From IMG/VR virus record IMGVR_UViG_3300019886_000004, positions 62,001 to 126,000 of that record: DNA of 64,000 bases. One strand, given 5' to 3'. This document shows, piece after piece, positions 2-19,058 of the stretch (within the stretch, counting starts at the first letter, position 1; every line of letters begins with the position of its first letter). The notes beneath the pieces were generated by a model. It worked only from the letters and a program-made list of their open reading frames with translations, did not search any database and was not told where the DNA came from. The position numbers and the translations under genes are program-made. Origin of the DNA: a virus.

Positions 2-3000
2 GACCAATCTATAGATAGTGGTTCTTCTACAGAAGATTCTGAGCAAGTTATACCTGAACAAGAATATGATCCTGAGACAGCTGATATTGATACTAGAGGA
101 TTAGAAGATTCTGTATATTCTAGCCTTGCATTTGAAACTTCTAATAAAACTGTAACACAAGAAGAAGGTGTAGATAGCAGAGGTAGATTTAATAATACTT
201 TAGATGAAGAACCTTACAAACAATTCATACAGGGGTACTTACGTTATTTAAATCAAAACGGTTTACCAGTTGATGGTTTACATGGAAAGATAATAAAAGA
301 TAATGAAGCTTTACCTCATACTGAAGAAACTCAAGCAGCTATATTAACCAAAGGTTATGGTTCTGTATTAGTTATAACTGATATAGATCGTAATATTTTA
401 CATTTCGATAAAAATTATACATCATCTCCGGATGAAAGAGAAGGAGCACAACCTATTGTATTTTCTTTTACTTCTCAGTATTTTGATGATTTAAAAAATG
501 CTCGAGCTGCAGTAGGTCAGGAAAGAACTGGAATATCAGCTGATGATTTCTTAAAAAAATATCAAACAGAAAAAGAGCAACAAGATTTAGCTAGACAACT
601 AAATTATAAAGGTAAAGAAATAAATGTAGAAGTAATTGGTATATCAAAAGGAGTAACAAGAAAATCTCAAGAACCTATCAGAGCTTCTGATGTTATTACT
701 GAATCAATGAAACCATTACTTCATATACCTTCTAGTAGTGAAAGATTTGATCCAGCAAATCCTGAAGCTAGTAAATACGTATTGCACGGTAATCAAACAC
801 TTATTAGTGGAGCTCTTTATGCTGAAACTGTTGATTCCAATACTAATATAGTATCTTATACTAGACTTATACCTAACTTAATTTCAGATATACCCGAACT
901 ATTTGAAAATATAAAGTCTTTACTAAATAATAAATATACAAATAAAAATCAAGCTATAATTGCCAGGGATTATTTAAAAGAGTTATTATTTTTAGGTAGA
1001 CCAAAAAGACCTAATTTAACTATAACTGAGAATGAAGATGGATCAGAATATAATATTAGATTACTTCAAGATGACCAATTAATAGATCCAGAGGCAACTA
1101 TGACATTTATTACTCAACAGAGATTGAATATATCAAAGTCTAATATTGAAAATGATGAACATAATGAAGTAACATTAAAAGGTAATAATATAAAGATTGA
1201 AACGAAACCTAATTATAAAAATTACATACTACAAAATTCTACTACTGTAGATATACCAGTTCAAACTTCCGAGGGTTCTAAATTCATACCACTTAATACA
1301 TATGCAGCTTTCAACTTCTTAGATAGTGTTGATAGTATGAAAGCTAAATTAGCTGAACCTGAAAAAGAGTTTGCTGAAGAAAGTGGTACTAATTTTGATG
1401 AAAACAGTGTTGCTATATTTAGACACGGACAGAATAACGAAGATATAACTGGAAAGAATTCTGGAAAGAATGACATACCTCTAAATAAAAAGGGTAGGGA
1501 AGATGCAAGAGCTATTGGTGCTATAATGAAATCATTAAGTATTATTAAAATTATAACATCTAAAATTTTAAGAGCAATTGAAACAGCACAATTAGCTGGT
1601 AAAGTTATTGGTGCAAAATCTATTGAAACTAATGAACTATTAAATACGTGGGATATTGGAGACTTTACCAGTCTACCAGATGATCAATTTGATGAACGTT
1701 GGTTTGTACTTCATCCTGATGAATTAATTAAAGATGGTAAAAAACTAGGTGAGTCTTTCAATACTTTTTTATCTAGAGCACAAAAGGGATATAAGTTTAT
1801 AGAAGGACTAGATAAAGAAACAGCTATTGTATCTCACTCGCGCAATATACGAGCATGGACAGCAATCAAAGAAAATAATGGTTTCTGGAATGAAAATGCA
1901 CTTGAAACTTTTTTAAATAAGAAAACTTCATTAGATTCTACTTCTATACAAAGACAGGAAACAGTTAGAGATAACTCCACTTTAACCAAGCAACCTTTAA
2001 AAAGACTTGGTAAAGTACAGACTAAAAGCGTTGAAGATTTAGCTAAGGAACAAGATGAATTAGATAAGGGAAATACAGAAGGTCTTACAGCGTCTGCAGA
2101 TGTTAGAGAAAATAGATCATTGATTGGAAATAGAGAAATACTTGAAGCCAATAGAATGTTTGGTGCTGAAATAATAGTTAGAGTTGATGAAATAGCTAAC
2201 TCTGATGCGCGAGCTTTATGGACTACATCTGGTATTAAATTATATCGTGACGCACGCAAAGGCGATGGTTATCACGAAGCATGGCATCATTTTTCTCAGC
2301 TTTATTTAACTTTACCTGAGAAAAGATCACTCTATGATGAAGCAAGAAAGAAAGGTGTAAACTATACAGATCGTTCTGGTCGTAAACTTAATACTAAATC
2401 TGTTTCTGATATTGACCTAGAAGAAATGATTGCAGATGATTTCAGAGATTACGTAGAAAGTAATGGTAAATCAAGATTAGTAGATAGACCTTATCGTAAT
2501 AACATATTTAGAAAGATACTCGACTTCTTAAAGAGATTCTTTTTCGGAGATGTTAATATTTCTAAACTTTATGATGATCTTTATAAAGGTAATTTAAATA
2601 AATATGAACCATCTATCAATAATGCTATGTGGGGTAAATTAACCTCTAAAGCAGTTGATGGACACGGTAATGAAATAGTTGATAATCAGAAAGCAGCTTA
2701 CTATAGAGATATAGTAGATTACTTCATGGGAGAACAATTACTAGCTGGTAATACTTCAGTGGAGTCTTTACGAAAGAATAAAAAACTAGCAGAAGCGGTT
2801 TATGGTAATATTTATAACGAACTGGTTACAAGATATTATAACCCAATGCTGGATAAATTTGATGCTGGTGAGGAAATCAACCAAACAGTAGCAGAAGAAC
2901 TAAATAATATTCTGACTAACTGGGAAGCTTTTGTAGATTATCATAAGAGAGCTTCTAAACTTTTCTTAAACATCCAACATGAGCTTGCTATAGATGTACC

Positions 3001-6000
3001 AGAGAATCCAGAGGATGTAAAGTCTGAAACTGACATATCTGAAGGAGATGATGAATTAAAGAATGAAAGCGATGAACAATTTGGAGAGGATGAAGTAGAT
3101 AAAGATGTAATGCAGAGTGATAAGCTTTATGATGTTTCAGGCAATGAACAATCTTCCATTAATGCAGCCTCAATTCAAACAAGAGGTTTAATAAGAATGT
3201 TACCAGCTATAGATTTTGATAATGGTAACTTTACAATTTTATTAGATAATAATGGATTCCCAAGGCTTAATGACTACGCTAGAACTTGGAATAACATAGC
3301 TTATGAATTATCTGATCTTAATTCTTATGATGAAATGATTAATAAGCTTCGTGATCCTAAAACTTTAAAGAAGATACCTGAAGTAAGTGTACTTCTTAAA
3401 CATCTTCCAAATCCAGACAAAGATCACACACCTAGAGAGATAAATACAATAGCTGCTTTTAGAACAGATTTCAATAGAGCTTATATTGGTATATATTCTG
3501 GTAAGATGAATAATAACGGTAATTATTATTTGAACGAAGAAACTAAAAGAAATTTAGACCAAGTAAAAAAGACTTGGACTGCTAACTTTTACAATAAGAC
3601 TTCAGATGATCCAGATGTAGCTGGAGAAAGGATATTGGTGGATGAGGATAATGGTAAGAACTATTTAAATCCCAGTATAATATTATCCTATAATCCAGGA
3701 GCTATAGCAGGTAAAGAAGCTTTACTAAAATTACTAGGTATTAGTTTTTCTGATGAAGCTAAAAATGATAGATTCTATACTGGACAGTTAAGTCAACTCT
3801 TGGCTGATATACAAACTAATATAAATGAGCGTCATCAAAATGGTCAAAGAATATACAATCCTACATTTGATCTCAGAAGCGATTTAAAGGACAATAAGAC
3901 AGGAGAAGTTATAGTTAGGGGTTTATATGGTGTTCTTGATGGATTGTTTTATTTCCAGTCTAAATACGCCTCAGATGTACCCTCATTATCCTATCAGACA
4001 GCTGAAGGTGAAATGATCTATGGTTTAAGTTTAAATCATACTTTATCTATAGTTTCTAATAAGCTTAACAAAGCAACAAGTTACGATGATATAAAAAATG
4101 ATCCTTCTATGCAACATTTGGATTATACAAATAATCCTTATGTTCTTGGATCAATTTTTCTTAAGAAATTATTCAATTTAAATAAAGGAACTAGATTAAA
4201 AGATAATTATATAATAGTAGGTAACTACAATGGTTTTAAACAGCAGGATGAAGATGGAGATACTGTGGGTTATTCTACTACGAATTTAAATGTACGTCAA
4301 AAAGCTATCTTTGATATTAATTCGCTTTTAACTAAAGGTGTAGTAGAAGTAATGAGAACAGAAAGTTCCAAAAGTGCTTACTTTATAAAACTTCATCATT
4401 ATGAAAAAGATAATGCTGGAGATCCTAGTAAGTCTTATTTACCTATAGGTTTTAGTGAATTACCTGCTGGATTTCAAAGCCCTCGTTTAATGAATTATAT
4501 GATTGATGGTTATTTACATGACGAGTTAAATAGAATGAAAACCGCAGCTAATGTAGATGTTTATAAGAATGATCCTAAACTTATGCAAGCAGCACAAGGT
4601 TTCAATCTATTCAGAGATGTACTTAGGGGAATTTTAGATCAATATGGTAATCTTAGAGCTACTGAAAAGAATGCTGAAAGTTTAAAAGATTCCATAAAAT
4701 CAGATCTTGAAAGACATTCGCCTGATGCAATAATAGAAAAATATAGAGATAGAATCGAACAGGCAATAAATAGGTTTTTTGAGAGCGAATTTAAGTCATT
4801 GAAAGAAGGACTTGAAGAAGAAAACATCACTGGAGATGACATAGCTAAAAACTTACCTAGTAAGTCTTATGATCAGCAGTTACGTACTTTTATAGCTAAT
4901 GATTTTTTACTTAATGTAGAATACACTAAGTTATTTAATGGAGACACGATTTATCAAGCTCATTACAAAGATTATTTTAAAAGATCCAAAGGAGATATAT
5001 CTACAGGTAAAACTCCAATGACGGATGATCTATTTGCTAGACATATGCGTTCTATTGAGAAAAATACTTTTGGTGCTTTTATTCAATCAACAATACCTAA
5101 TGATTATAAAACATTCAGAACTATTAATTTTAAAGATGACACAAGAGATTCCAAATATATAGAGATATATAGAAAAGACTTACTTGCCGCAGATCCTACG
5201 TTAAAACCTGAAGAAATAGATAAATGGTTAGAAAAATATAAAGGTATGAAAATTGCTGATGGTCAAGGTTATGTAACTTTGGATTTCTATCGCCAATTTT
5301 TAAAATCTATTAATAACTGGTCAGATGCGCAAGAAAAAGGATATCAGGTTGAGCTAGCTAAGTATAGACTCGCTAATAAATCATTTAACACTGACTATAC
5401 AAATGAAATGCAAGAATATGATAGAGAATTCTTAAAAGCTAATCCTCAGAACTTTTCTTATTATCCTCCTCTTAAAATTCAATATAATGGTCCTATAAAA
5501 GCTAAAGGTACAGGAGCAATGGTAATGGATAAGTTTTCTGTTGTGCCCTTAATACCATCCATACTTCAGAACACACCGCTCGAACAAATTCACAATGAAA
5601 TGTTAAAAGCTGGTATTGGTTATGCAAAATATGCATCAGGTACTAAGAAGTATTTACATCCTCCAGTTGAAATTTACAATGAGGACGGATTTCAAGGACT
5701 TGATCTTTCTAAACACGAACCTGCTGTACATTTTTTAGATTATCTTAAAGAACAGATTAATACCAATCCTAAGACTAAATCAGAATCCATATTTGGTTCT
5801 CAAATACGTAAGTTAATTGAAGCCAATATTTTTAGTAACGGTACTGCAGATAAAATAGATTTGGATAGACACGAAAGATATAAAAGTTACATAAAAGGTA
5901 TTATTGATCTAGGTAAAAAAGAGTTATTCAATGAAATAGGACTTTCTGAATCTGAAGGAAGAATAAGAATAGGTGATATGGAAAAGTTTATTTCTACTAT

Positions 6001-9000
6001 TCAACAACAAGCTGAACTTAGGGAGCTGAATGATAATATAAAAGATTACATACAATATGATAAAGATACCAAAAAACTTAAATATGCTCTTGAAACTTCT
6101 TTGAATAGAAAACCTATCCAAGACCTTTTAATGGGTATTGTTGACAGAAGGATGAGAGTTCAGAAATTAAGTGGAGATCAACTTATACAGATATCATCTT
6201 CTGGATATCAAGCTAATGACTTTAAATATACTAAAGCAACAGATGAAGAAGTAAAAAAATATGGTACAAACGGTCTTAGATTTTACCACCTTGAATATGA
6301 TGAAAATGGTAAACCTAAAAATATTGTATCATCTCAAGTCAAGGTAGGTTTAAGTACTAATGGATTTGATAAACTTTTAAATAAAAAACATCCAGATGGT
6401 AAAAGGATAAGTACCCTAGAGAGATTAAATGAACTTTTAAGAGATGGCAATTGGCGCAAAGAGAATAAAAAAAGTATAACATTAATAGGTTATCGTATAC
6501 CTACGCAAGGTTTTAATTCTATGGAACATTTGGAAGTATCTGAATTTTTACCTCCTCATGTAGGATCTTCTATAATTGTTCCAGCTGAGATTGTAGCTAA
6601 ATCAGGATCTGACTTTGATATTGATAAAATGTCTATCTTTAGACCATCCTTTGATGAGAATGGTGAGATTATAGACGGAGGATCTAAAGAAGGTTATTCC
6701 AATAAAATTATAAATTTATTCTCAGAAATACTTTCTGATCCTAAAATCTTTAAACAACTAATTAGACCTAATGACACTGATCTAGTTAAACCTGAAACAA
6801 ATGATGTTGCTGTAGCGATAGGTAAAAGAAGTGCCTCTGATATTAAAGATCCTAAGCCTTACTCAGGAACTCAGATTTATAGATATAAAAATAACTTAAG
6901 AAAGTTTGAAACTCTTTTATCCGCTAAGAAACTGTTAAGCATATTTGCTGTTAATAATACATTTAGTACTGTTATGCAGCAGGCTGGTACTACTATGGCT
7001 ACTACTTATGGTCTTGAAAAAGGAGTTAACAGAAATGTTAAGTTATTTTTGATGAGTCCTAAAGAAAGGCAAAAGGTTATCAAAGATAATAGAATTCTCT
7101 TAGGTTCTAAATATTCTGTTGATGGTAATTTCAAGCAAGACTTTTATAGCCAATTAATTAACGCTACAGTTGATGCTGCTTCTGATGACTTCTTTGGTTA
7201 TGTGAATATGTCATATGAGAATGTAAACGTTCTTTGTCATTTAATTAATCAAGGTGTACCATTTGACCGTGCTATATGGTTCTTAAATCAACCAGTCCTC
7301 TTACGTTATTATTCTGACATGCGTAAAAGACAAAGAGGTGTAGGTAAAGACTCTGTTAAGGCAACTATACTAGGTCAACTTACAGGAAAGGATTATTTCT
7401 TTCAGTCAGAGACCACTGGAAGAATGATGCTTGATAGAGCTATATATAATAAGGATATAAACAATATATTAAATAATCCTAAGTACACTAATTTATTCTT
7501 AAGTAAAGATGTACTTAAGAAATATACTGTTAAGAATAAGAATGTTGATGAGTTCTTACAAGATCCTAAGACTAAAACCTATAATGCTATTGTCCTAGCT
7601 TATTTTATAAGTCTTCAAGAGCAAGCTGGATTATTTAGAGATTTACAAAGAGTATCAAGTTACGATACAACTAAAACTTCTAGTCCCACTATTGCTTATA
7701 ATCTATTTGCAGTATCAAAACAAATAGAAGCAAATAAAATGTTTAATGCTGAGGAGGTCAGTAAAATATCAACTAAAAGTATAATAGGAGCTTTTGATAA
7801 TAAAAAATTGGTAGCTACTATCGGTGCGGCTTTGATGCCCGTGGCTTTTAATCCTTATTTTATGTCCAAATCGGTAGCTATAATAAAAAAGAATACTCAA
7901 TATGCTACTAGAACAGCTCAGAAAAAATTCATTAACAATTATGAAACTCAATGGATAGAATACGTAGTTAAAAGCTTAGGTAAAATAGGTGACTATTCTA
8001 TACCTCAATATACTAGATATCTACAAGAAGGTAAAGGTAGTTTAGCTAGAAGGTTTAATGAGATTATTGGAAAGTATCCAGAACTCAAACAAGACTATGC
8101 GCTGGTTAATAAACTAAGACCAAACTTTCCAAACCAAGTTAATATAAAGAAATCTAATATAGAGGTATACAGGTTATTCGAGAATACCACTGATGATCAG
8201 AATAGATACATATCAGAATTTAGAAATCTAATTAATTTAGATTCTAAAAAATACAATCCACAGCAAACTATAGAAATTCAGAAGTTTTTTAGAGACTTAG
8301 CTATTCTAGGATTCACACAGTCAGGTTTCAATAAAAGTAACATTTCGTTTCAAGATATAATACCTTACGAGCAACTAGCAGATATCTTTAAAACAACTCT
8401 AGATAACTTCAATAAATATATAGCAAAAGATCCAAGTTTATTAGATAGTTACATAAAACAATTTCAGTCCCAATTTTCTAGTAATCAAAAGTCTAATAAG
8501 CAATCATGGAGAGGTAGAGATTACTATCTAACTGATGAAGCAAACAAAGCAATAAGAGCTAAAACAGGTAAACCAGAAGAAGTCAAGAAAGCTCAAATCA
8601 ACGTTCAACCAGAACCAGAAGCTTTTGAAAATATTAAAAAAGTCAAACTAACTGAAACCAATCAACAAGAGCAACTAGCACCACTAGTAAAAACAGAACG
8701 TCAATATTGGCCTGGCGATGAAGTACCTGAAAGCACTAATGAATTAGAAAAAGCTATTGGCAAAGCTCAGTATAAAATGATGATGGATAATTTGAGAGAT
8801 TCAAATAATGATTACTTTTATGATGACTTACCTGATAGCTATACTAAGGAAGATTTTGATAAATACATCGATAATGAAGATTTTATTCTACAAACTAAAA
8901 TAACACCTGAAAACTTTGAAAGGTTTTTACAGGTTTATAATAGATTTGGTGACTCGATAGTTACTGATGATGGTGGAGAATATTCACTGGAATCCTTAAC

Positions 9001-9274
9001 TAATAGTCTAAGAAATAAACTAATATTTGATGAAAATGGAAGTAGTGCAATAGAATACCATGATGGAATAAAAAGTATTTTTGAAGAGTATATCAAAGAT
9101 AGAACACCTGATGATATGAAAGATAACGTTGAGAAAATTCTTGGAGATTATGGACTTCTTAAGTTTAGAGACTACAATTCAAATCAACCTAAACTAGAAT
9201 TTCCAAACGAATCTGAAGGTAGATATTATACAGATGAAGAATATAAAGAAAAGTTAAAAAACTGTAAAGGATAA
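2..9274 (+). CDS. Giant crAss-like phage RNA polymerase polyprotein (5' end outside window)
   Basis: The frame is open from the first bases of the window with no ATG before 707, so the gene starts upstream and at least 3090 residues lie here. Counting from base 2: a histidine-phosphatase-like segment (FRHGQN at about 473-478, later VSHS with His612); a zincin motif HEAWHH at 758-763; and, near the middle, SGSDFDIDKM with DFDID at 2204-2208 (bases 6611-6625). DxDxD is the metal-binding loop of the two-barrel single-subunit RNA polymerases typified by YonO and phi14:2 gp66. In crAss-like phages this enzyme is known to be virion-packaged and to transcribe early genes after ejection. The acidic stretch near 1000-1040 looks like a linker. 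A 4-nt gap separates it from the next giant gene. Polymerase assignment is confident; the activity of the two accessory motifs is inferred. Confidence 0.88.
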   Translation, partial: DQSIDSGSSTEDSEQVIPEQEYDPETADIDTRGLEDSVYSSLAFETSNKTVTQEEGVDSRGRFNNTLDEEPYKQFIQGYLRYLNQNGLPVDGLHGKIIKDNEALPHTEETQAAILTKGYGSVLVITDIDRNILHFDKNYTSSPDEREGAQPIVFSFTSQYFDDLKNARAAVGQERTGISADDFLKKYQTEKEQQDLARQLNYKGKEINVEVIGISKGVTRKSQEPIRASDVITESMKPLLHIPSSSERFDPANPEASKYVLHGNQTLISGALYAETVDSNTNIVSYTRLIPNLISDIPELFENIKSLLNNKYTNKNQAIIARDYLKELLFLGRPKRPNLTITENEDGSEYNIRLLQDDQLIDPEATMTFITQQRLNISKSNIENDEHNEVTLKGNNIKIETKPNYKNYILQNSTTVDIPVQTSEGSKFIPLNTYAAFNFLDSVDSMKAKLAEPEKEFAEESGTNFDENSVAIFRHGQNNEDITGKNSGKNDIPLNKKGREDARAIGAIMKSLSIIKIITSKILRAIETAQLAGKVIGAKSIETNELLNTWDIGDFTSLPDDQFDERWFVLHPDELIKDGKKLGESFNTFLSRAQKGYKFIEGLDKETAIVSHSRNIRAWTAIKENNGFWNENALETFLNKKTSLDSTSIQRQETVRDNSTLTKQPLKRLGKVQTKSVEDLAKEQDELDKGNTEGLTASADVRENRSLIGNREILEANRMFGAEIIVRVDEIANSDARALWTTSGIKLYRDARKGDGYHEAWHHFSQLYLTLPEKRSLYDEARKKGVNYTDRSGRKLNTKSVSDIDLEEMIADDFRDYVESNGKSRLVDRPYRNNIFRKILDFLKRFFFGDVNISKLYDDLYKGNLNKYEPSINNAMWGKLTSKAVDGHGNEIVDNQKAAYYRDIVDYFMGEQLLAGNTSVESLRKNKKLAEAVYGNIYNELVTRYYNPMLDKFDAGEEINQTVAEELNNILTNWEAFVDYHKRASKLFLNIQHELAIDVPENPEDVKSETDISEGDDELKNESDEQFGEDEVDKDVMQSDKLYDVSGNEQSSINAASIQTRGLIRMLPAIDFDNGNFTILLDNNGFPRLNDYARTWNNIAYELSDLNSYDEMINKLRDPKTLKKIPEVSVLLKHLPNPDKDHTPREINTIAAFRTDFNRAYIGIYSGKMNNNGNYYLNEETKRNLDQVKKTWTANFYNKTSDDPDVAGERILVDEDNGKNYLNPSIILSYNPGAIAGKEALLKLLGISFSDEAKNDRFYTGQLSQLLADIQTNINERHQNGQRIYNPTFDLRSDLKDNKTGEVIVRGLYGVLDGLFYFQSKYASDVPSLSYQTAEGEMIYGLSLNHTLSIVSNKLNKATSYDDIKNDPSMQHLDYTNNPYVLGSIFLKKLFNLNKGTRLKDNYIIVGNYNGFKQQDEDGDTVGYSTTNLNVRQKAIFDINSLLTKGVVEVMRTESSKSAYFIKLHHYEKDNAGDPSKSYLPIGFSELPAGFQSPRLMNYMIDGYLHDELNRMKTAANVDVYKNDPKLMQAAQGFNLFRDVLRGILDQYGNLRATEKNAESLKDSIKSDLERHSPDAIIEKYRDRIEQAINRFFESEFKSLKEGLEEENITGDDIAKNLPSKSYDQQLRTFIANDFLLNVEYTKLFNGDTIYQAHYKDYFKRSKGDISTGKTPMTDDLFARHMRSIEKNTFGAFIQSTIPNDYKTFRTINFKDDTRDSKYIEIYRKDLLAADPTLKPEEIDKWLEKYKGMKIADGQGYVTLDFYRQFLKSINNWSDAQEKGYQVELAKYRLANKSFNTDYTNEMQEYDREFLKANPQNFSYYPPLKIQYNGPIKAKGTGAMVMDKFSVVPLIPSILQNTPLEQIHNEMLKAGIGYAKYASGTKKYLHPPVEIYNEDGFQGLDLSKHEPAVHFLDYLKEQINTNPKTKSESIFGSQIRKLIEANIFSNGTADKIDLDRHERYKSYIKGIIDLGKKELFNEIGLSESEGRIRIGDMEKFISTIQQQAELRELNDNIKDYIQYDKDTKKLKYALETSLNRKPIQDLLMGIVDRRMRVQKLSGDQLIQISSSGYQANDFKYTKATDEEVKKYGTNGLRFYHLEYDENGKPKNIVSSQVKVGLSTNGFDKLLNKKHPDGKRISTLERLNELLRDGNWRKENKKSITLIGYRIPTQGFNSMEHLEVSEFLPPHVGSSIIVPAEIVAKSGSDFDIDKMSIFRPSFDENGEIIDGGSKEGYSNKIINLFSEILSDPKIFKQLIRPNDTDLVKPETNDVAVAIGKRSASDIKDPKPYSGTQIYRYKNNLRKFETLLSAKKLLSIFAVNNTFSTVMQQAGTTMATTYGLEKGVNRNVKLFLMSPKERQKVIKDNRILLGSKYSVDGNFKQDFYSQLINATVDAASDDFFGYVNMSYENVNVLCHLINQGVPFDRAIWFLNQPVLLRYYSDMRKRQRGVGKDSVKATILGQLTGKDYFFQSETTGRMMLDRAIYNKDINNILNNPKYTNLFLSKDVLKKYTVKNKNVDEFLQDPKTKTYNAIVLAYFISLQEQAGLFRDLQRVSSYDTTKTSSPTIAYNLFAVSKQIEANKMFNAEEVSKISTKSIIGAFDNKKLVATIGAALMPVAFNPYFMSKSVAIIKKNTQYATRTAQKKFINNYETQWIEYVVKSLGKIGDYSIPQYTRYLQEGKGSLARRFNEIIGKYPELKQDYALVNKLRPNFPNQVNIKKSNIEVYRLFENTTDDQNRYISEFRNLINLDSKKYNPQQTIEIQKFFRDLAILGFTQSGFNKSNISFQDIIPYEQLADIFKTTLDNFNKYIAKDPSLLDSYIKQFQSQFSSNQKSNKQSWRGRDYYLTDEANKAIRAKTGKPEEVKKAQINVQPEPEAFENIKKVKLTETNQQEQLAPLVKTERQYWPGDEVPESTNELEKAIGKAQYKMMMDNLRDSNNDYFYDDLPDSYTKEDFDKYIDNEDFILQTKITPENFERFLQVYNRFGDSIVTDDGGEYSLESLTNSLRNKLIFDENGSSAIEYHDGIKSIFEEYIKDRTPDDMKDNVEKILGDYGLLKFRDYNSNQPKLEFPNESEGRYYTDEEYKEKLKNCKG

Positions 9275-9278
9275 ACCA

Positions 9279-12200
9279 ATGAATCAATGTCCGAATTTTT
9301 CCGATCCGAAATATAAGTATCTAGAAAATAAACTAGGTGAGCTTGAAGCTTACAAATACTGGCATCAACATGGTGGTGATATTTCTCACGTGTTAACTAA
9401 TCAAGATAGATTAAAGTTAATTGATAGATCTAAAGAATTAGTTAAATATGTACAAGGTGTTTATAGTCACGCAGCTAAAGAAAATCCTGAACTATTTCTA
9501 AAGGAAATAGCAGATCAACTGACAAGTTCTAAAAATGAAGCAACTACAGCCAGAAAAATAGCTGGAAACGAGCTTTCAAATATTGCTTTACAACTAAGAG
9601 CTTCAGAAAATCTTACTCCTAAATCAATTAATGTTACTATGAAAATAATAGGAGCATTAAAACAAGATAAGTCTAATCCTTCAATAGTAGGACCATTGCA
9701 AGCTAAAGGTTTAGTGGGTAAAAGAGTAGCTCCTTTAACATTTGAGATACCAGTTGATCCAACCAACTTCAATTTAATGGATCAGCAAATAAAAGCTACC
9801 AAGGTTGCTCAGCAAATTAATAAACAAGCTGGTAAGGAAGTAGTAACTACAAAAGTAGTTAATGGTAATGCTGCAATATTAGTTGACCCCAATATAAAGA
9901 GTATAATAGATAAACTTGATCCTTCAGATTTTACAACTTACAAGCAATATCTAGTTGACAATCTTTACACGAGTAAAGACAATCCAGCCACAACAGATTT
10001 AATAAATAATGCCGCTAAATTATCCAGAGAGTTAGGTAGAGACGATCTAGTTAACGTGGCAAGACTAATTTATAAATATTTAGATAAAAATCCTACTCTC
10101 AAAACTAGAATGGTAGATGATATATTTGAGGAGACTGGAGAAACTGGTATAAAAGCTTACTATAACAAAGGTACAAATAGTATAACTTTTGGTAGATCTA
10201 CAATGGGACAGAGTACACTTGAGTACGAATCTGAAACAGTTCTTCACGAAATACTTCATGGTTTAACTTTTCAGCCGTGGTTTAAATCTAAAGTAGATGT
10301 ACCTTTATCTCAAGAAGAAAAAGATTTTAAACATGTTGTAGAAACTTATTATAGTTATTTCAAGGGTAAAAAAGGAGCTGAAGGTTATGCTTTCACTAAT
10401 CCTGAAGAATTCTTAATGGGTGCACTATTTGATAAACCCTTCCAAGATCATTTAAAAGAGCTTGGTGGAGATACTGTTAAGGGATCTCCTTTTGTACAAT
10501 TTCTAAAAGATATACTTAAAAGATTCTTAGCTTTATTCGGAATTAAATCCAAAGACGAAATAGTAGATAAATTAGACCCTGAGAAAATCCAATCTTCTAT
10601 GATTGAAGCTTTGTCTGATTATTTAGGTAAGATGAAGAAGATTGATTTATTTAACGGACTAAAAGAAGAAGGTAGAAATTATGGTCTTAGTTTTGCTATA
10701 ACAGCGCAACAGGATTACTTGAGTGAATCTGAAAGACTTAAAGCTGAACGAGAAGAAAGAGAAAAGATGAAAGCTTCTCTTGGTGATAATCTTAGAGAAC
10801 AATTAAAAAAGAGTATTGATAAATCTATACTTTCCATAAAATCATTCGGATCTAACATTCGAAAAAGAATACCAGAAAGTCAAGAAGGTTTTAAAGCTAT
10901 TTTTAAGCAATTAAAAAAACTCGAAGATCCGGCTTATAATTTAGACCAAATAGACTTCTTCTTTGATTTTACATCTGAGATACAAGCCATTATGAATGTG
11001 GCTCATGAAAAAATTAGAAAGTTACAGTCCGATACCACTATAAATGATCCCGACGTTAAACTAAAAGAGTACGAAGATATAGTATCTGCGGCTAGAAACT
11101 TTGATCCTATTTTAAATGAGATTCAGAATATAAAGATTCAACTGGAGAGTCTAGGATATAAAGCATCGTTAGTTGATCTAGATGATATAACATTAAAAAG
11201 AGACAGGATAGAATCTATCTATAGTATGGGTGTATTTCCATTAGTAACAGATAAGTTTGTGGATATTTTATCTCCTTCATCTAAACAAGCAGTAGAAATG
11301 TCTACTACTAGAATTGATGAACTAGATAAAAGAATAGCACTTGCTAATAAAAATAACAATAAATCACGTGTTTTACAACTAGAAAGAGAGAAGAAAACCG
11401 AACAGTCTAAGATAGATAAAGAATTTACACTTAGTTCAGATAAAGTTAGAGATTGGTTAAGAGGTCAAATGGGTGACTCTAATATCTTACAGGTTTGGTT
11501 AATGGCTGGCGTGTCAAATTCTAATCCTTTAGTATCTGGCTTATCTAAGTATATTAGAGATAATGTTGGAGAGGCTGCACCTGCAGTACTTGAGCTTATG
11601 AACACTATGCAATCCAAATTAGAGGATTATGAGTCTAAAACAAATAGGTCAAGAAATAATATACTAGAATTTAATACACCTTTAATTCAAACTCATAAAA
11701 TTATCAATGGTAAGGATGAGAAAGGTGAATATACCTATGAGGATAAACGCTCTCTTTTACATGAATTTAATGGTGGACATATTCAAGAACTTCAGAAGTT
11801 TAAAAGACAGTTGACAGACCTTTATGCATCCAAAAGAGAAATAGAGAGTACTGCTAATCCAAATGAAGAAAATCTAAAGTTTCTTACTGATAGAATTAAA
11901 GAAACTAAAGATAAACAAAGACAGTTTATAAGAGATTACATGGAGCAACAGTATACTACTGAAGTACATGAAGCTTTAGACATGCTCCACGAGGATTTAG
12001 GAGGCTATACAGCCTGGGATTATATGGGACCAGTACTATCTAGAATAGAAGATACAGAGCTTGCCATTGACCAGGAGAATGATCCTGCTAGGTTAGCTGA
12101 TTTATATAATCAGTTAGATGGACATAATATAGAGTTCTCTCGTCTTGGTTCTTTATATGAAAAATCACCTGATAGTAGAGAGTTGAAAGTAGCTGAACAA

Positions 12201-15200
12201 ATAAAAAAAAGAAGAGAACTTTTAGGTAAATATAGTCAATATGTTCTAACAGACAAAGGTAAAGTTCAATTTGATACTCAGTGGGCAAGAATGAAAAGAA
12301 AATTGTCTAAAAATGAAATAACTCCTGAGAAATATGAACGTTGGTTGGAGGATAATACTGTAACCGAAAATACTCCAGCTTTCTGGGATGCAAAAAATGC
12401 AATCTTAAAGGATCTTAATGACCTGTATTTAGAAATGGGTGTTGAGAATAAGAAGGATGAAAATATTGGTAAACTCTACAAAGGTATGGAAGATATTACC
12501 AAGGCACATAGAGATTCTAATGGTATAATAAATGGATCAGAAATGCCTGATAAAGAATTAAAAGATGTTAAAAGTTTAGAAGAACAAATTGAAAAAGCTA
12601 AAGATGATTTAGCTAACATATTCGGTTTGACAAGACTTGAAAGAGTAAATATATCTAATCTAAAGAATCAAATTGATGAGATTGGATCTATGATGTATTT
12701 CGAACAAGATCCAGATAAAAGACAGAATCTAGTAAATTTAAAGGCTGATATTGAAGATCAAGTTGATGAAATAGAATCTAAGAAGAAAAATATTAATAAG
12801 AAACTATTGGATAAATATTTTCTTCTAATGAAAAAACTAGGTGAATTAGAAGAAGGTAATGTTACCAAGTATTATTTAGATGAATCACAAGAGAGATTAG
12901 AGCAAGAAACAGCTAAAGTAGATACTTCTAAAATGCCAGTTAAAATGATTATGAATGGTAGAACCTATCAAAAATCAGGTAATGAATGGTTGGAAATATC
13001 TGGAGGTAAAATAGAGAAGAGAGATATAGCTTTCGTAGAAAATATATTTAAAGAAAAAAAAGGAAATGTAAACTATCTTAACTCTGACTGGTATAAAACC
13101 AATCATGTAAAAAAGATGAAGTTTGTTAGAAATGCGGAATACATACCTGGACAGTATGATGTAGCTGCTGGAGATTGGCAAGAAGTAGAAGAACCTACGT
13201 ATGCATGGAAGCAAACAAGACCAAGGGATTCAAACTACATAAACGAAAATCAACCATCTTTTAAATATAAAACCAGGCAAATTAAAGACCAATATATAAA
13301 CAAGAATTATAGAGAAGATATTAATGGAGACTTGAGACCTAAAGTGAAAGGAGTTAAAGATGATAGATTTCTTAATAAGGATTATCAAAGACTTATTAAC
13401 TCTAATAGTTCTCAGGATACTGCCACAGCTAATATGTTAAAATATTTAACAGATACTTATTATAAAGCTCAAGAAGGTATTCCAAAAGGTCTTAGACCAG
13501 GATATGAATTACCTGGAATAAGAAGAACAGATACAGAAAGATTGATAGGTCAAAGTTTGAAGAAATCTAGTCAAGAAATGTTTGAATATCTTGGTCAGAT
13601 AGCTAGAAGTATTAAAGATAAAGCTGTAATTAATGAGCAAGATAAAGATATTTTATTTGGATACAATGATGACTTTAATGGAATAGTTCCAATTAAATTT
13701 CTAGGGGATATTGATTCTAAGGATCAAAGTATAGATTTACCCAAATCTATTTTAACCTTTGCATCTGAAATGTTAAAACGTGAGCAATTAGTTAAAAGTT
13801 TACCTTTTGCAAATGCAGTTAAAGATATTGCAAATAATTCAGATTATAGACCTGTTAAAACTAAGAAAGGTATAGTTGAATCTGTTAAGAGGAAATTTCT
13901 ACCAAAGAATACAGAAGTAGCTAAAAGGTCAGATACAAGTAATACTGCTTTGCAAATTAATGAAATAATAAAATCAGAAATATACGGGGAACAGATGAAA
14001 GATCAACCAGCTGCTAAATTAGTGAATAGTTCACTTAGATTAGGAGCGGGAGCAATGCTTGGTTTAAATTTTGTATCTTCTGTACAGAACTATGCTAATG
14101 CATTTACTCAATCTATCATTGAGACAGAGAGTAAAAATAAGAACTTTGATATGAAAGGTTTCTTTAAGGCTCAAAAGATTTATTATGCTCATGTGGATGA
14201 ACTTATGAGTGATCTAGGTAAGTACGGTAATAAATCTTATATTAACCAATTCTTTGATTACTTTGGTGGTATTAATTATAAAATATTTGGTAAAAATCAT
14301 AAGACATTGGCTCATAGCAAAGTAGGAGAATTTACCAAATCTTTATCGGTGCCTAATACTATAACTGAACATATGCTTAATTATCATATGGGTATAGCTA
14401 TAGCTTTGAAATATAGAGTATCTGATGGTAAAGGTAATATGGTGCCAATATTTGACGCGTTTACTAAAAAAGATGGTAAGCTAGTTCAAAAAGAAGGGTT
14501 TAATATAACAGAGGAAGAAAGAAAAGAACTTATAGCTAGACTTAATAGCTCTGCTAGAAGAATCAATGGTGAATATGGAGATAAAATATTAGCAGATAAA
14601 TATGTTTTAGGAAAACTTGTTTCATTCATGAATAGATATCTAGTGCCGTTTGTAGTAAAAAGGTATGGTGCTAGAAAATTTGATATTCAAGATGGTCAAC
14701 GTGATGAAGGCTATTGGAGATTATTTGGTAAAATTTTAATACAAGATATTAGAACTAAATCTGTTCCAATACTTGGACAATGGAAATATTATACAGCAGA
14801 AGAAAAACAAGCCATAATTAAATCAATGACTGAGCTTGGGTTTACTATCATGTTTGCTTTAATGATTCATGCTTTAGGAGGAGATGACAACAAACAAATT
14901 AAAGATAATAGTATTCTCACTAATAACCTAATATATGCATTAAAAGGTATACAACAGCAAAACGAGGCTTTTATGCCTGTGCCAGGTATAGGTTTTGATG
15001 ATCTTTTTAGAAAGATACAAAATCCTTTTCCAATACTTGGTAAAGTAAAAAATCTTGTTTCTTTAATTCAGGATGGCTCTCATACAGCTTGGTATGAAAT
15101 GGGATTGCCAGGAGTGGATGAAAAGGATGTGAAATATATGCAAAAGACGGGATGGCATAAGCCAGGAGATTTCAAAATGTTTGCAGATTTTCAAAAATTA

Positions 15201-15281
15201 ATAGGAGTACAGAAACTAGTAAATTACTTCTATCCAGATGAGGCATTAAAAGCACAAGAATCAATGTCAAGAATAAAATAA
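9279..15281 (+). CDS. Giant zincin-containing protein, probable ejected virion protein
   Basis: 2000 aa, starting 4 nt after the RNAP stop, with an A/G-rich AAAGGATAA stretch before the ATG. A zinc-metallopeptidase motif HEILHG sits at residues 323-328 (HExxH). The middle third (about 500-1200) is rich in Lys, Glu and Asp with long heptad-like helical stretches, probably coiled coil. The C-terminal third has Gly/Ala-rich segments and a hydrophobic stretch (FTIMFALMIHALGG) that could be membrane-active. Crassvirales genomes usually carry several giant proteins next to the RNAP, thought to be ejected with it; this fits by size and place. The peptidase could process the neighbouring polyprotein, or the motif could be structural. 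No family assigned for the rest. Confidence 0.75.
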   Translation: MNQCPNFSDPKYKYLENKLGELEAYKYWHQHGGDISHVLTNQDRLKLIDRSKELVKYVQGVYSHAAKENPELFLKEIADQLTSSKNEATTARKIAGNELSNIALQLRASENLTPKSINVTMKIIGALKQDKSNPSIVGPLQAKGLVGKRVAPLTFEIPVDPTNFNLMDQQIKATKVAQQINKQAGKEVVTTKVVNGNAAILVDPNIKSIIDKLDPSDFTTYKQYLVDNLYTSKDNPATTDLINNAAKLSRELGRDDLVNVARLIYKYLDKNPTLKTRMVDDIFEETGETGIKAYYNKGTNSITFGRSTMGQSTLEYESETVLHEILHGLTFQPWFKSKVDVPLSQEEKDFKHVVETYYSYFKGKKGAEGYAFTNPEEFLMGALFDKPFQDHLKELGGDTVKGSPFVQFLKDILKRFLALFGIKSKDEIVDKLDPEKIQSSMIEALSDYLGKMKKIDLFNGLKEEGRNYGLSFAITAQQDYLSESERLKAEREEREKMKASLGDNLREQLKKSIDKSILSIKSFGSNIRKRIPESQEGFKAIFKQLKKLEDPAYNLDQIDFFFDFTSEIQAIMNVAHEKIRKLQSDTTINDPDVKLKEYEDIVSAARNFDPILNEIQNIKIQLESLGYKASLVDLDDITLKRDRIESIYSMGVFPLVTDKFVDILSPSSKQAVEMSTTRIDELDKRIALANKNNNKSRVLQLEREKKTEQSKIDKEFTLSSDKVRDWLRGQMGDSNILQVWLMAGVSNSNPLVSGLSKYIRDNVGEAAPAVLELMNTMQSKLEDYESKTNRSRNNILEFNTPLIQTHKIINGKDEKGEYTYEDKRSLLHEFNGGHIQELQKFKRQLTDLYASKREIESTANPNEENLKFLTDRIKETKDKQRQFIRDYMEQQYTTEVHEALDMLHEDLGGYTAWDYMGPVLSRIEDTELAIDQENDPARLADLYNQLDGHNIEFSRLGSLYEKSPDSRELKVAEQIKKRRELLGKYSQYVLTDKGKVQFDTQWARMKRKLSKNEITPEKYERWLEDNTVTENTPAFWDAKNAILKDLNDLYLEMGVENKKDENIGKLYKGMEDITKAHRDSNGIINGSEMPDKELKDVKSLEEQIEKAKDDLANIFGLTRLERVNISNLKNQIDEIGSMMYFEQDPDKRQNLVNLKADIEDQVDEIESKKKNINKKLLDKYFLLMKKLGELEEGNVTKYYLDESQERLEQETAKVDTSKMPVKMIMNGRTYQKSGNEWLEISGGKIEKRDIAFVENIFKEKKGNVNYLNSDWYKTNHVKKMKFVRNAEYIPGQYDVAAGDWQEVEEPTYAWKQTRPRDSNYINENQPSFKYKTRQIKDQYINKNYREDINGDLRPKVKGVKDDRFLNKDYQRLINSNSSQDTATANMLKYLTDTYYKAQEGIPKGLRPGYELPGIRRTDTERLIGQSLKKSSQEMFEYLGQIARSIKDKAVINEQDKDILFGYNDDFNGIVPIKFLGDIDSKDQSIDLPKSILTFASEMLKREQLVKSLPFANAVKDIANNSDYRPVKTKKGIVESVKRKFLPKNTEVAKRSDTSNTALQINEIIKSEIYGEQMKDQPAAKLVNSSLRLGAGAMLGLNFVSSVQNYANAFTQSIIETESKNKNFDMKGFFKAQKIYYAHVDELMSDLGKYGNKSYINQFFDYFGGINYKIFGKNHKTLAHSKVGEFTKSLSVPNTITEHMLNYHMGIAIALKYRVSDGKGNMVPIFDAFTKKDGKLVQKEGFNITEEERKELIARLNSSARRINGEYGDKILADKYVLGKLVSFMNRYLVPFVVKRYGARKFDIQDGQRDEGYWRLFGKILIQDIRTKSVPILGQWKYYTAEEKQAIIKSMTELGFTIMFALMIHALGGDDNKQIKDNSILTNNLIYALKGIQQQNEAFMPVPGIGFDDLFRKIQNPFPILGKVKNLVSLIQDGSHTAWYEMGLPGVDEKDVKYMQKTGWHKPGDFKMFADFQKLIGVQKLVNYFYPDEALKAQESMSRIK

Positions 15282-16143: not shown

Positions 16144-17125
16144 TTAAAACATTGACAACTGTGTATAATCTTCATTAGAAATTTCTGGTTGAATTTCAGA
16201 AATTATTTCATATGTCTTTTTAACGTAAAAATCATAGTTTATGTCATAGTCTTCTATTTTCTTTTCAACATGTTTATTGTATATAGTAGCTTTCCATTTA
16301 CCTGCATCTTCTTGTATTTGCCTACCATCCGGATTACATTTTACAAGCTTAACACCATCGTTTGATATAAAATATCTATTTGTTTTCTGGAGTTTCTCTT
16401 TAATGATGTAGTTGTCCTTAAAGTAGATGGAATTCAAATACCAATCTCCTTTTGTTCTCATCCCAGCACAAAAATCCATAATATTAGTATGATTAGCTAT
16501 AAACAATCTTGGATTTATACCTTTAACATAAAATTCATTGAGAGCTAAGGCTATAATCCTGTAACTTTTATTTTTATGTAGCTCATGGTTTATAGTAAAA
16601 CTCGCTCCTTTGTGTTTAGGTTTTCCATCTGTTTTAACTGCAACATAATCATTTACAGATCTTTGTGCTAGTAATGAATAATCAGCATATTCTAATTTAC
16701 CTTTATCATTATTACCAACTAAGGTTTCCCAGTCTTTACATATTTTCTTATATAATTCTTCTTGGTTTTTATCGAACAAAGATACTATACCATCAGTATT
16801 AGCAGATATTACGTTAATACCCCCCAAAACTAAACGTTCAATTAACATAATAAGATCTATCTGACTTCCTATAGTCACGTCAAAACATGTTTTTGGAGAA
16901 AACTGCCAATTTGTTTTATCCTGTAACTTTCCAAAAAGACCTCCATTTGCTGCTAATTTATAAGCTTCATCTACTGATTTATACTTACCTTCTTTAGTTT
17001 GCTTATACATATCCTTAGCAATGTCTCTATCACCTATTAATTTGTCAACTATACCTAACCATTCTATACCAAGGTGCTCCGGGTAAAGTTTTCTTTTTCT
17101 AATTGCATTGGGATACATACCACCT
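16144..17125 (-). CDS. Family B DNA polymerase, exon 2 (polymerase palm, fingers and thumb)
   Basis: C-terminal exon of the replicative polymerase. Joined to exon 1 it gives 977 + 982 = 1959 nt, exactly 652 codons plus stop. The junction codon GT|A (Val326) is followed by GGMYPNAI, which rebuilds motif A as Asp325-V-G-G-M-Y-P, the counterpart of DxxSLYP. Motif B is KLAANGGLFGK from Lys382 and motif C is NTDG at 435-438 with Asp437. A longer open frame to 17148 exists but its first residues are intron sequence that replaces the motif A Asp, so it is not the true start. At 652 aa it is at the small end for family B. Crassvirales encode either a family A or a family B replicase; this one has B. 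Confidence 0.88.
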
Positions 17126-17824
17126 CTAACTAACATCAAGACTTTCATCTTGAACTGGACTATATTTTAATTTTAAAAATTTCCTCCAAACGAAACCGTA
17201 CATGCTTGGTTTTTCTCCAGAACATACTGCATATATGTTGTGGCGCTTGTAAGTTGGATTATCATCAAGTATACTTTTCATTGTATTCCAAATCTTAATT
17301 AATTTACCTTCTTTTGTTTTTTGATGTATTTCATAAATAGTTCTAGATTGTGAAACTTTGTTTGCCATTTCTTCTTTTGCTTCTGGATTTTCTCGGTAGA
17401 ATTTAGAACAATTACCACCAATATATCCCCTTGTTTTTCTTAATTTATAAGCATTAGATAATTTCTTTCTTGTTTCATCACTAACTATTAAACCTGTTTT
17501 GGAATCTTCTCTTTTATTATATCCACATTTACTATTTAAAGAATTGAATTGTTTAATCCAATAAATTTCTTTTTCTGATATTAATTTTTCATCTAATTCT
17601 AAATATTCCAAAACAAAATAATCAAAATTCTCTCTTCCGTACTTAAGCCATGCATTTATAAAATGATCATTTTCACTGTCTCTTTTTTTATTATTGAGAT
17701 TTGTTATGTGATTTTTGATCCTTCTATGAATACATTTTGCTTTTCCAATGTAAACTTTATTATTAATTAAATTCCTAATACAATAAATACCTGATTTTTC
17801 TTTATCTTTTATATTTGCTTTCAT
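17126..17824 (-). CDS. Intron-encoded GIY-YIG homing endonuclease
   Basis: 232 aa from the ATG at 17824. A TTG at 17839 in the same frame is possible but less likely. The GIY-YIG nuclease domain is N-terminal: SGIYCI at 11-16, VYIGKA at 24-29, a downstream Arg-rich IHRRIKNH helix, and the catalytic-Glu region EKEIYWI. The C-terminus (HNIYAVCSGEKPSMYGFVW) resembles the small NUMOD-type DNA-binding repeats of such enzymes. Its role would be to cut intronless polymerase alleles and spread the intron. The last base of its TAG stop is also the 3'-terminal G of the intron, so the ORF runs exactly to the splice site. Confidence 0.9.
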   Translation of the reverse strand: MKANIKDKEKSGIYCIRNLINNKVYIGKAKCIHRRIKNHITNLNNKKRDSENDHFINAWLKYGRENFDYFVLEYLELDEKLISEKEIYWIKQFNSLNSKCGYNKREDSKTGLIVSDETRKKLSNAYKLRKTRGYIGGNCSKFYRENPEAKEEMANKVSQSRTIYEIHQKTKEGKLIKIWNTMKSILDDNPTYKRHNIYAVCSGEKPSMYGFVWRKFLKLKYSPVQDESLDVS

Positions 17825-17827
17825 AAT

Positions 17828-17859
17828 ATAATATAGCAAATATTTAGGATATAACCAAG
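17828..17859 (-). promoter_or_regulatory. Possible promoter inside the intron for the endonuclease
   Basis: CTTG, a 20-nt spacer and TATATTAT fit the spacing of the other promoters in this window, with one mismatch in the -33 box. The -7 box ends only 3 nt before the ATG, so transcription would be leaderless. The boxes resemble those before the HNH endonuclease at 23495-23526. Confidence 0.4.
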
Positions 17860-17879
17860 TAAATTTTAAAATTTGTGGT

Positions 17880-18081
17880 CTTTCGAATACAGTTTATAGT
17901 TGTATCCTACTCTCTTTCGAGATAGTCTCTGAACGTTCTCCTGTTCGGAGCTTCGCTGCTGATTGTCCAATCCCTTAATTTTCAAGCATTTACGTTTAAA
18001 CCTATTTCATTTTTCCGATTTAGCTTAAAGGCTCTAAGGAGTTTCCAGCAATTAACCACATTATGACGCAGGTTTTACTTT
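17880..18081 (-). ncRNA. Group I intron ribozyme core
   Basis: This is the non-coding part of the intron between the 5' splice site and the endonuclease gene. It holds P1 with its guide sequence, the P/Q pairing elements, the GAACAGGAGAACGTTC region and the GTTCAGAGACTA signature, followed by local hairpins. It is richer in G+C than the flanking genes. All the catalytic core lies upstream of the ORF, so the ORF occupies the 3' peripheral region (P8/P9 side) and ends at the 3' splice site. Confidence 0.85.
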
Positions 18082-19058
18082 ACGTCAGCATCACGCATTA
18101 TTTGATCACTAGTTGGAATAACCAACCTTGGTTGATCATCACTATGAAGACCACCTTTTGCTATAAGGTATCTTGTACCACCAATTTTAAATGGAAACTC
18201 TTGTTTTTTATCAAATAAAACAGGAGTTTTTCTTATACTATTTATAAACGAATTTAATTCTTTGGTAACGAAACTAGTATAGGATGGAAAGCAATCTTCA
18301 AAGGTGAAAGGTTTTATAACTGACACCTTTTCTTTTAACTGCTTTCTTGTAATTCCAGCTGCTTTTAAGTAATTAGTTTTGTTAATTTCATCACCTATCT
18401 TTACATCATCAAAATTAGTGCAATCAAATCCAAATTCTTTTCGTATGTCTTTTCTTAGCTGAAGTTTATCTTTATCTTTATAAAGTTCGTTATCAGTCTT
18501 ACCTCTTGTTATTTCATAGAATTTTTTGGTAGATAAACAGTCATTCTTACAATAATCAATAATGAGGTCAGCTTTTTCTCTAGTGTCTACGGAATCTCTA
18601 TGATCAATTGGCATATCTTCTATGTTATGCCAGTCCATCATATATTGTAGCCACTTTAAACCCACTCTCTTTGCCTTATTATTATAATGCCATACTTTGT
18701 ACAGATCCACTTGCCTAATGGCTAAATCACGCTCCCAATAGTCTGGCCATTCTTCATTGTTAGCTTTCTGAATTACATGGTTAGAATAATTTGAAATATA
18801 TTCAGCTATATTTTTTCCTGGAATTTTTTCTTCTAACCAAACCATACTATTCTCAAGTATCATCTGTTGTACTTGAGAGTCAAATGCTAAACTATTAAAA
18901 CCTATCTGTCCTTTTAGAGTTTTTAAATGCTTTTTTAATTCATATAAATCATTCTTAAATTTGGATATTTCAAAAACATTAAATCTGTCTTTTTTTATAT
19001 CTAAGTCAACATAAAGGAAGAAATCTTTAAGAGTTTCTAGATCATAGATAACTATCAT
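18082..19058 (-). CDS. Family B DNA polymerase, exon 1 (3'-5' exonuclease domain)
   Basis: N-terminal exon: 325 codons plus GT of codon 326. Exonuclease motifs are Exo I YDLET with Asp6 and Glu8, Exo II GFNSLAFD at 53-60, and Exo III YCKNDCL with Tyr169 and Asp173, so proofreading is probably intact. It ends RDADV at the motif A Asp325. Without splicing, translation would run two residues into the intron and stop at TAA, giving a polymerase-less exonuclease fragment of 327 aa. It starts 12 nt after the -7 box of its own promoter, so its leader is only a few nucleotides long. Confidence 0.9.

Follow-up and report, generated by a model that had tools for sequence, protein, structure and literature searches.

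A putative mobile group I intron that interrupts a phage family B DNA polymerase gene one codon past the catalytic aspartate

The window analysed here, a stretch of 64,000 nucleotides (62001-126000) from a virus record of 147,916 bases, holds a phage DNA polymerase gene that almost certainly carries a mobile group I intron, provisionally of the IA type, in the codon following the catalytic aspartate of a family B enzyme, with splicing and homing predicted from the sequence. The main elements, from the 5' end of the gene, are:

18082..19058, minus strand: DNA polymerase exon 1, from the exonuclease domain to the motif A Asp and two Val bases (PHROG 1252 and translation)
17126..18081, minus strand: group I intron of 956 nt, provisionally IA type (RF00028 in two pieces; frame, P1 and P10)
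17126..17824, minus strand: ORF of 232 aa for a putative GIY-YIG homing endonuclease (Pfam, PHROGs and alignment)
17126..17128, minus strand: endonuclease stop UAG, whose G is the terminal G of the intron
16144..17125, minus strand: DNA polymerase exon 2, with the rest of motif A, motifs B and C and the C terminus (PHROG 1252 and alignment of relatives)

The two polymerase halves correspond to the minus-strand ORFs 18075-19058 and 16144-17148. When 18082 is joined to 17125, the exon lengths of 977 and 982 nt give 652 codons, as an earlier note on this DNA had proposed, and the joined frame is stop-free, reading RDADV/GGMYPNAI through the junction (junction peptide RDADVGGMYPNAI). The PHROG 1252 (DNA polymerase) profile continues across the join without a gap, exon 1 covering its positions 54-357 and exon 2 positions 359-659, and by this match the predicted protein falls in family B. 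Motifs A, B and C follow in order as DVGGMYP, KLAANGGLFGK and ANTDG in the alignment to intronless relatives. The earlier claim that the polymerase is split exactly at motif A stands in so far as joining restores the motif (DADV/GGMYP), but the codon of the catalytic Asp (18086-18084) lies whole within exon 1, and the codon interrupted, following its base 2, is that of the next residue, Val.

Comparison with relatives, which the earlier note had suggested as a check, gave intronless polymerase proteins free of intron-derived sequence: in a protein alignment motif A is uninterrupted in five of them, including Maribacter phage Panino (MEKDVGSMYPRSI) and cr52_1 (IDIDVASLYPSML), the empty-site counterpart of the intron in gut scaffold MT839577 (L002). 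Similarity of the polymerase to those of crAss-like and Flavobacteriia phages is about 30%. A PHROGs search recognised no Crassvirales markers among 10 other window proteins, and one 544-aa window protein had no phage match. The window also contains two very large ORFs, 707-9274 and 9279-15281 (2855 and 2000 aa), the second without a match in PHROGs or Pfam.

The ribozyme was assembled from the following elements, with helices assigned by eye plus alignment:

18082..18087, minus strand: P1 5' strand, exon UGACGU; U at 18082 is the U of the U.G pair
18070..18073, minus strand: P10 guide strand ACCU (covariation, 15 introns)
18064..18069, minus strand: P1 3' strand GCGUCA
18054..18060, minus strand: P3 5' strand UGUGGUU (pair counts)
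18046..18051, minus strand: P4 5' strand UUGCUG (RF00028 and pair counts)
17956..17961, minus strand: P4 3' strand CAGCAG (RF00028 and pair counts)
17923..17934, minus strand: R element GUUCAGAGACUA (GTTCAGAGACTA), with P7 5' strand GACUA at 17927-17923 (RF00028 and pairing)
17911..17922, minus strand: P7.1 hairpin UCUC-GAAA-GAGA (sequence; matching hairpins in L014 and others)
17885..17906, minus strand: P7.2 hairpin GAUACA...UGUAUUC (sequence and alignment)
17874..17880, minus strand: P3 3' strand GACCACA (pair counts)
17861..17873, minus strand: P8 5' strand, AU-rich; the endonuclease ORF lies in the P8 loop and the S element beyond the body of the ORF
17169..17179, minus strand: P8 3' strand, within the endonuclease ORF (from sequence)
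17157..17168, minus strand: S element AAAAUAUAGUCC, within the endonuclease ORF, with P7 3' strand UAGUC at 17162-17158 (RF00028 and pairing)
17136..17153, minus strand: P9 hairpin UCAAGA-UGAAAG-UCUUGA, within the endonuclease ORF (pair counts)
17122..17125, minus strand: P10 exon 2 strand AGGU, the opening four bases of the exon

This anatomy has the features of a group I intron: a P1 with U.G at the 5' site, a P3-P8 core in which R and S form P7, and a terminal G with P10. The core element GTTCAGAGACTA at 17934-17923 and the P1 pairing (UGACGU/GCGUCA, with its U.G) are both as the earlier note had read them, and the covariance-model search it called for does find the core. In a 1.2-kb search, Rfam RF00028 matched the 5' core (17855-18129) with 40.2 bits (E 1.6e-8) and the 3' core (17136-17276) with 19.8 bits (E 0.021). 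Both pieces lie below the gathering score of 50, and an RF00028 scan of the whole window at that score returned nothing; the model sees two pieces, neither at threshold, because the halves stand about 650 bases of endonuclease gene apart, the ORF lying in the P8 loop. Folding of the 5' part by minimum free energy gave a stability not clearly above that of shuffles (z -1.28), and thermodynamic folding was left out of the evidence. The P7.1 and P7.2 hairpins at 17922-17885 indicate the IA subgroup, an assignment that is provisional because the relatives L005, L006, L009 and L017 are without them.

At the 3' end, 18 candidate G residues were scanned, and 17126, already named as omega G in the earlier note, is the only one that is in frame and also gives a 4-bp P10; the alternative 3' splice sites were rejected, as none combines the reading frame with such a pairing. 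To this we add a covariation analysis of 15 motif A introns, that of the window and those of 14 further loci, whose splice sites were placed according to reading frame, the U.G pair and the terminal G. All 14 introns listed have the P1 U.G at their 5' splice site, the P1 of L009 (UUGGGU/GCCCAA) being assigned by hand. P10 is paired in 56 of 60 cells over the 15 introns, where shuffles average 39.8 and peak at 55 (none of 50,000 shuffles, with exon 2 shuffled inside each site class, reached 56). Pairing is complete in P3 (90/90 cells, 15 introns), P4 (45/45) and P9 (80/80, 13 introns), and in all three double changes are present and pairing exceeds every shuffle. P7 is likewise fully paired (75/75), with a single double change, GACUU/AAGUC in L017. 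The covariation in P10, P3, P4 and P9 therefore fixes both splice sites. The strands behind these counts were extracted by hand, a choice that leans toward structure; this bias affects P10 least, because the junction position fixes both of its strands. The alignment of the trial set is poor in its 3' half.

The ORF within the intron matches Pfam GIY-YIG (PF01541, E 3.2e-10) and the homing endonuclease families PHROG 314 and 7168, and the active-site positions GIY, YIG, R31, E82 and N99 are invariant in the alignment. By its catalytic domain, it would be a GIY-YIG homing endonuclease with predicted cleavage activity. The earlier note had its TAG sharing a last base with the intron end: the TAG is indeed at 17128-17126, but the ORF shares about 54 nt with the ribozyme core and not one base, as its final 18 or so codons also encode P8', P7', P9 and the terminal G. 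The S element of the window is the unusual AAAAUAUAGUCC in place of AAGAUAUAGUCC and lies in a shifted frame (UAU AGU) that skips the UAG, which leaves the ORF about 12 residues longer than those of L002 and Flavobacterium phage Fpv1 (L003). Among the 15 motif A introns, nine have an endonuclease that stops at a UAG within the S element (AAGAUAUAG or AUGAUAUAG); P7' is read through in L007, L009, L017 and the window.

The weight that the earlier note placed on the stop codon supplying the terminal G finds no support, as this is one point among scattered stop positions and near chance. The 15 stops spread from -57 to 0 nt relative to the terminal G, with exactly 0 in the window only, and the closest relatives in this comparison, L005 and L006, stop shortly before the S element, 40-50 nt earlier than the window. 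When the 54-nt tail was shuffled with its final G kept, the first stop fell on the terminal G in 2.3% of trials, which gives roughly 30% for at least one case in 15 introns, so that a single case is not remarkable. Against this background it is highly improbable that selection placed the stop there to tie translation to splicing, for instance through a terminating ribosome that covers the 3' splice site, and the stop on the terminal G looks accidental. The observation on the other side comes from L001 (C1:130741-131052 and flanks, minus strand; 52.4 bits), a second group I intron in the record, which lies in a gene that we take, by reading its translation, to be nicotinamide phosphoribosyltransferase-like. 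Its core is 80% identical to that of the window over 71 bases, and it carries an unrelated ORF of 309 aa that begins inside the core and whose UAA stands immediately 5' of the inferred terminal G, at a junction placed by eye. This UAA-G end is the sole hint of stop placement beyond chance. We would give as little credence to the fuller proposal that the overlap is a switch, in which complete translation of the endonuclease unfolds P7 and P9, the ribosome parks on the 3' splice site and the stop is under selection; if it were true, each pre-mRNA would yield either polymerase or endonuclease.

At least 14 phage loci have related introns within 5 nt of the insertion point of the window. The closest endonucleases sit in the same polymerase gene, in MT839577 and Fpv1, and an alignment-based IMG/VR search added twelve more motif A introns. 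Polymerase exon 2 as a single-protein IMG/VR query found no relative; the endonuclease alignment did. Ten introns, with the window among them, occupy site A1 (GAY GU/, the slash marking the intron) and five occupy site A2, 5 nt downstream. In the endonuclease tree A1 and A2 proteins do not form separate clades, and that of the window groups with the A2 members L005 and L006 (82/94, below the starred level). The core of the window is in turn most similar to those of L014 (A2), L008 (A1) and L001, the other intron of the record. From this grouping across sites and from the core similarity, the lineage appears to have moved its insertion point by 5 nt within motif A, once or more often.

Related GIY-YIG endonucleases were also observed near polymerase residue 484 (L018-L029 and L031). 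Eight of them, those in the tree, form one clade (100/100), and in the junctions read in L018, L022 and L024 exon 1 again contains GAYGU, in DV/NNY. These copies would be explained by a single transfer from one GAYGU site of the polymerase gene to another, as far as tree and junctions indicate.

Several further features were noted in these loci. In L007, polymerase exon 1 appears to have a second interruption (2826-3190), placed in the GGI motif some 22 codons before motif A; the insert has no long ORF and may be another group I intron. The intron of L008 has a tRNA-like stretch in its peripheral region at about 3225-3330 (GCGGGTTCGATTCCCGT, loop CTTCAGA); a tRNA suspected there by eye was dropped, as ARAGORN makes no call. 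On the phage contig L022, a tmRNA gene (461-792, 106.9 bits) lies upstream of the intron-split polymerase, and the endonuclease ORF appears to cross the 3' splice site and continue in exon 2. The Bacteroidota -7 box TAnnTTTG is found 5' of the endonuclease ORF in 14 of 28 polymerase-associated loci, compared with about 2 in shuffles, and often ends some 5 nt before the ATG. This suggests that in relatives the endonuclease has its own, nearly leaderless, promoter; no such promoter is claimed for the endonuclease of the window, where the sequence is a near match only.

Could the endonuclease gene merely split the polymerase, with two pieces that assemble without splicing? Each piece is translatable, since translation of exon 1 would end at a stop codon at nt 5-7 of the intron (18077-18075) and an ATG at 17148 lies upstream of exon 2; at L025 and some other loci, an endonuclease may lie within the polymerase with no clear intron around it. 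However, the window contains a full group I core whose P1 and P10 match the junction exactly and covary, the cut would fall inside a catalytic motif, and continuity of frame and profile is exact, which makes such an arrangement very improbable indeed. Least credible of all is a once-active intron that is now splicing-dead in a polymerase pseudogene: the sub-threshold Rfam scores and the unusual S element would fit it, but the core helices, P1 and P10 are all intact, and the two exons (with polymerase motifs A, B and C) and the endonuclease remain open reading frames and are conserved.

Group I introns splice by guanosine attack at the 5' site followed by exon joining, and homing endonucleases cut the intronless allele, into which the intron is then copied by repair. 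For the mobile intron that we favour, the transcript would fold into the ribozyme, guanosine would attack after U18082 with P1 holding the site, and the exons would be joined at A17125, positioned by P10, restoring a polymerase of 652 residues. In turn, the GIY-YIG endonuclease would cut intronless polymerase genes at the conserved motif, and the intron would spread by homing. Because the last 18 or so endonuclease codons are also P8', P7' and P9, a translating ribosome should disrupt the fold, and a given RNA copy would either splice or be read through by ribosomes, the situation in T4 td/I-TevI. What the analysis shows is the gene structure, the core, the splice sites, the covariation and the relatives that have or lack the intron; that the RNA splices, that the endonuclease cuts, that the intron homes and that translation competes with folding is what we infer, homing because of the relatedness of the introns and the active-site residues of the endonuclease.

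The intron of the window is a real but ordinary type of phage mobile element with a textbook mechanism. Its value is as a well-resolved example of how ORF-only annotation breaks phage replication genes, and it adds an endonuclease-intron lineage that has repeatedly settled on the catalytic motif of family B polymerases. The new details, as read from sequence comparison, are the probable 5-nt displacement of the insertion point from one motif A site to the other and the apparently single-origin copy near residue 484; a shift of insertion and one move to a second polymerase site are useful for studies of intron mobility and for annotation. We found no paper describing the motif A intron lineage in the open-licence literature, nor one describing this intron in the literature on Flavobacterium psychrophilum phages with introns.

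Among known systems, the nearest are phages Fpv1, Fpv2 and Fpv20 (L003) and MT839577, which likewise have a polymerase intron at the same codon and phase (GAY GU/) with the same core, and homologous GIY-YIG endonucleases (43% and 53% identity to that of the window for L003 and L002, respectively). Unlike in the window, these endonucleases stop at the UAG of the S element and do not read through P7' and P9. The intron region of MT839577 is unannotated, and Fpv1 was deposited as two separate 'DNA polymerase' CDSs around a 'homing endonuclease', the very outcome of two truncated polymerases that the earlier note had expected from ORFs alone. The polymerases of phages SPO1, SP82, Bastille and Pf-WMP3 belong to family A, and in T4 td the I-TevI ORF is located in a different peripheral loop. 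The introns of those four phages lie in conserved functional regions of the polymerase (PMC3428280, PMC11878797) but, in contrast to that of the window, carry HNH endonucleases and occupy an unrelated site. Group I introns with endonucleases also split PolB in Delta and Zeta crAss-like phages (Yutin et al. 2021, PMC7886860); there they are recognised by endonuclease domains, whereas here the intron is recognised by ribozyme anatomy at motif A. More generally, phage introns favour conserved genes, DNA polymerases among them, and endonuclease ORFs may overlap intron core sequences (reviewed in PMC3984707). The closest parallel for the overlap is T4 td/I-TevI, also a group I intron with a GIY-YIG ORF whose 3' end forms core structures: there the 3' end of the ORF contributes core nucleotides, translation lowers splicing, and removing translational control reduces splicing (PMC2988022). 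The T4 system differs in gene and site, and its regulation has been demonstrated experimentally.
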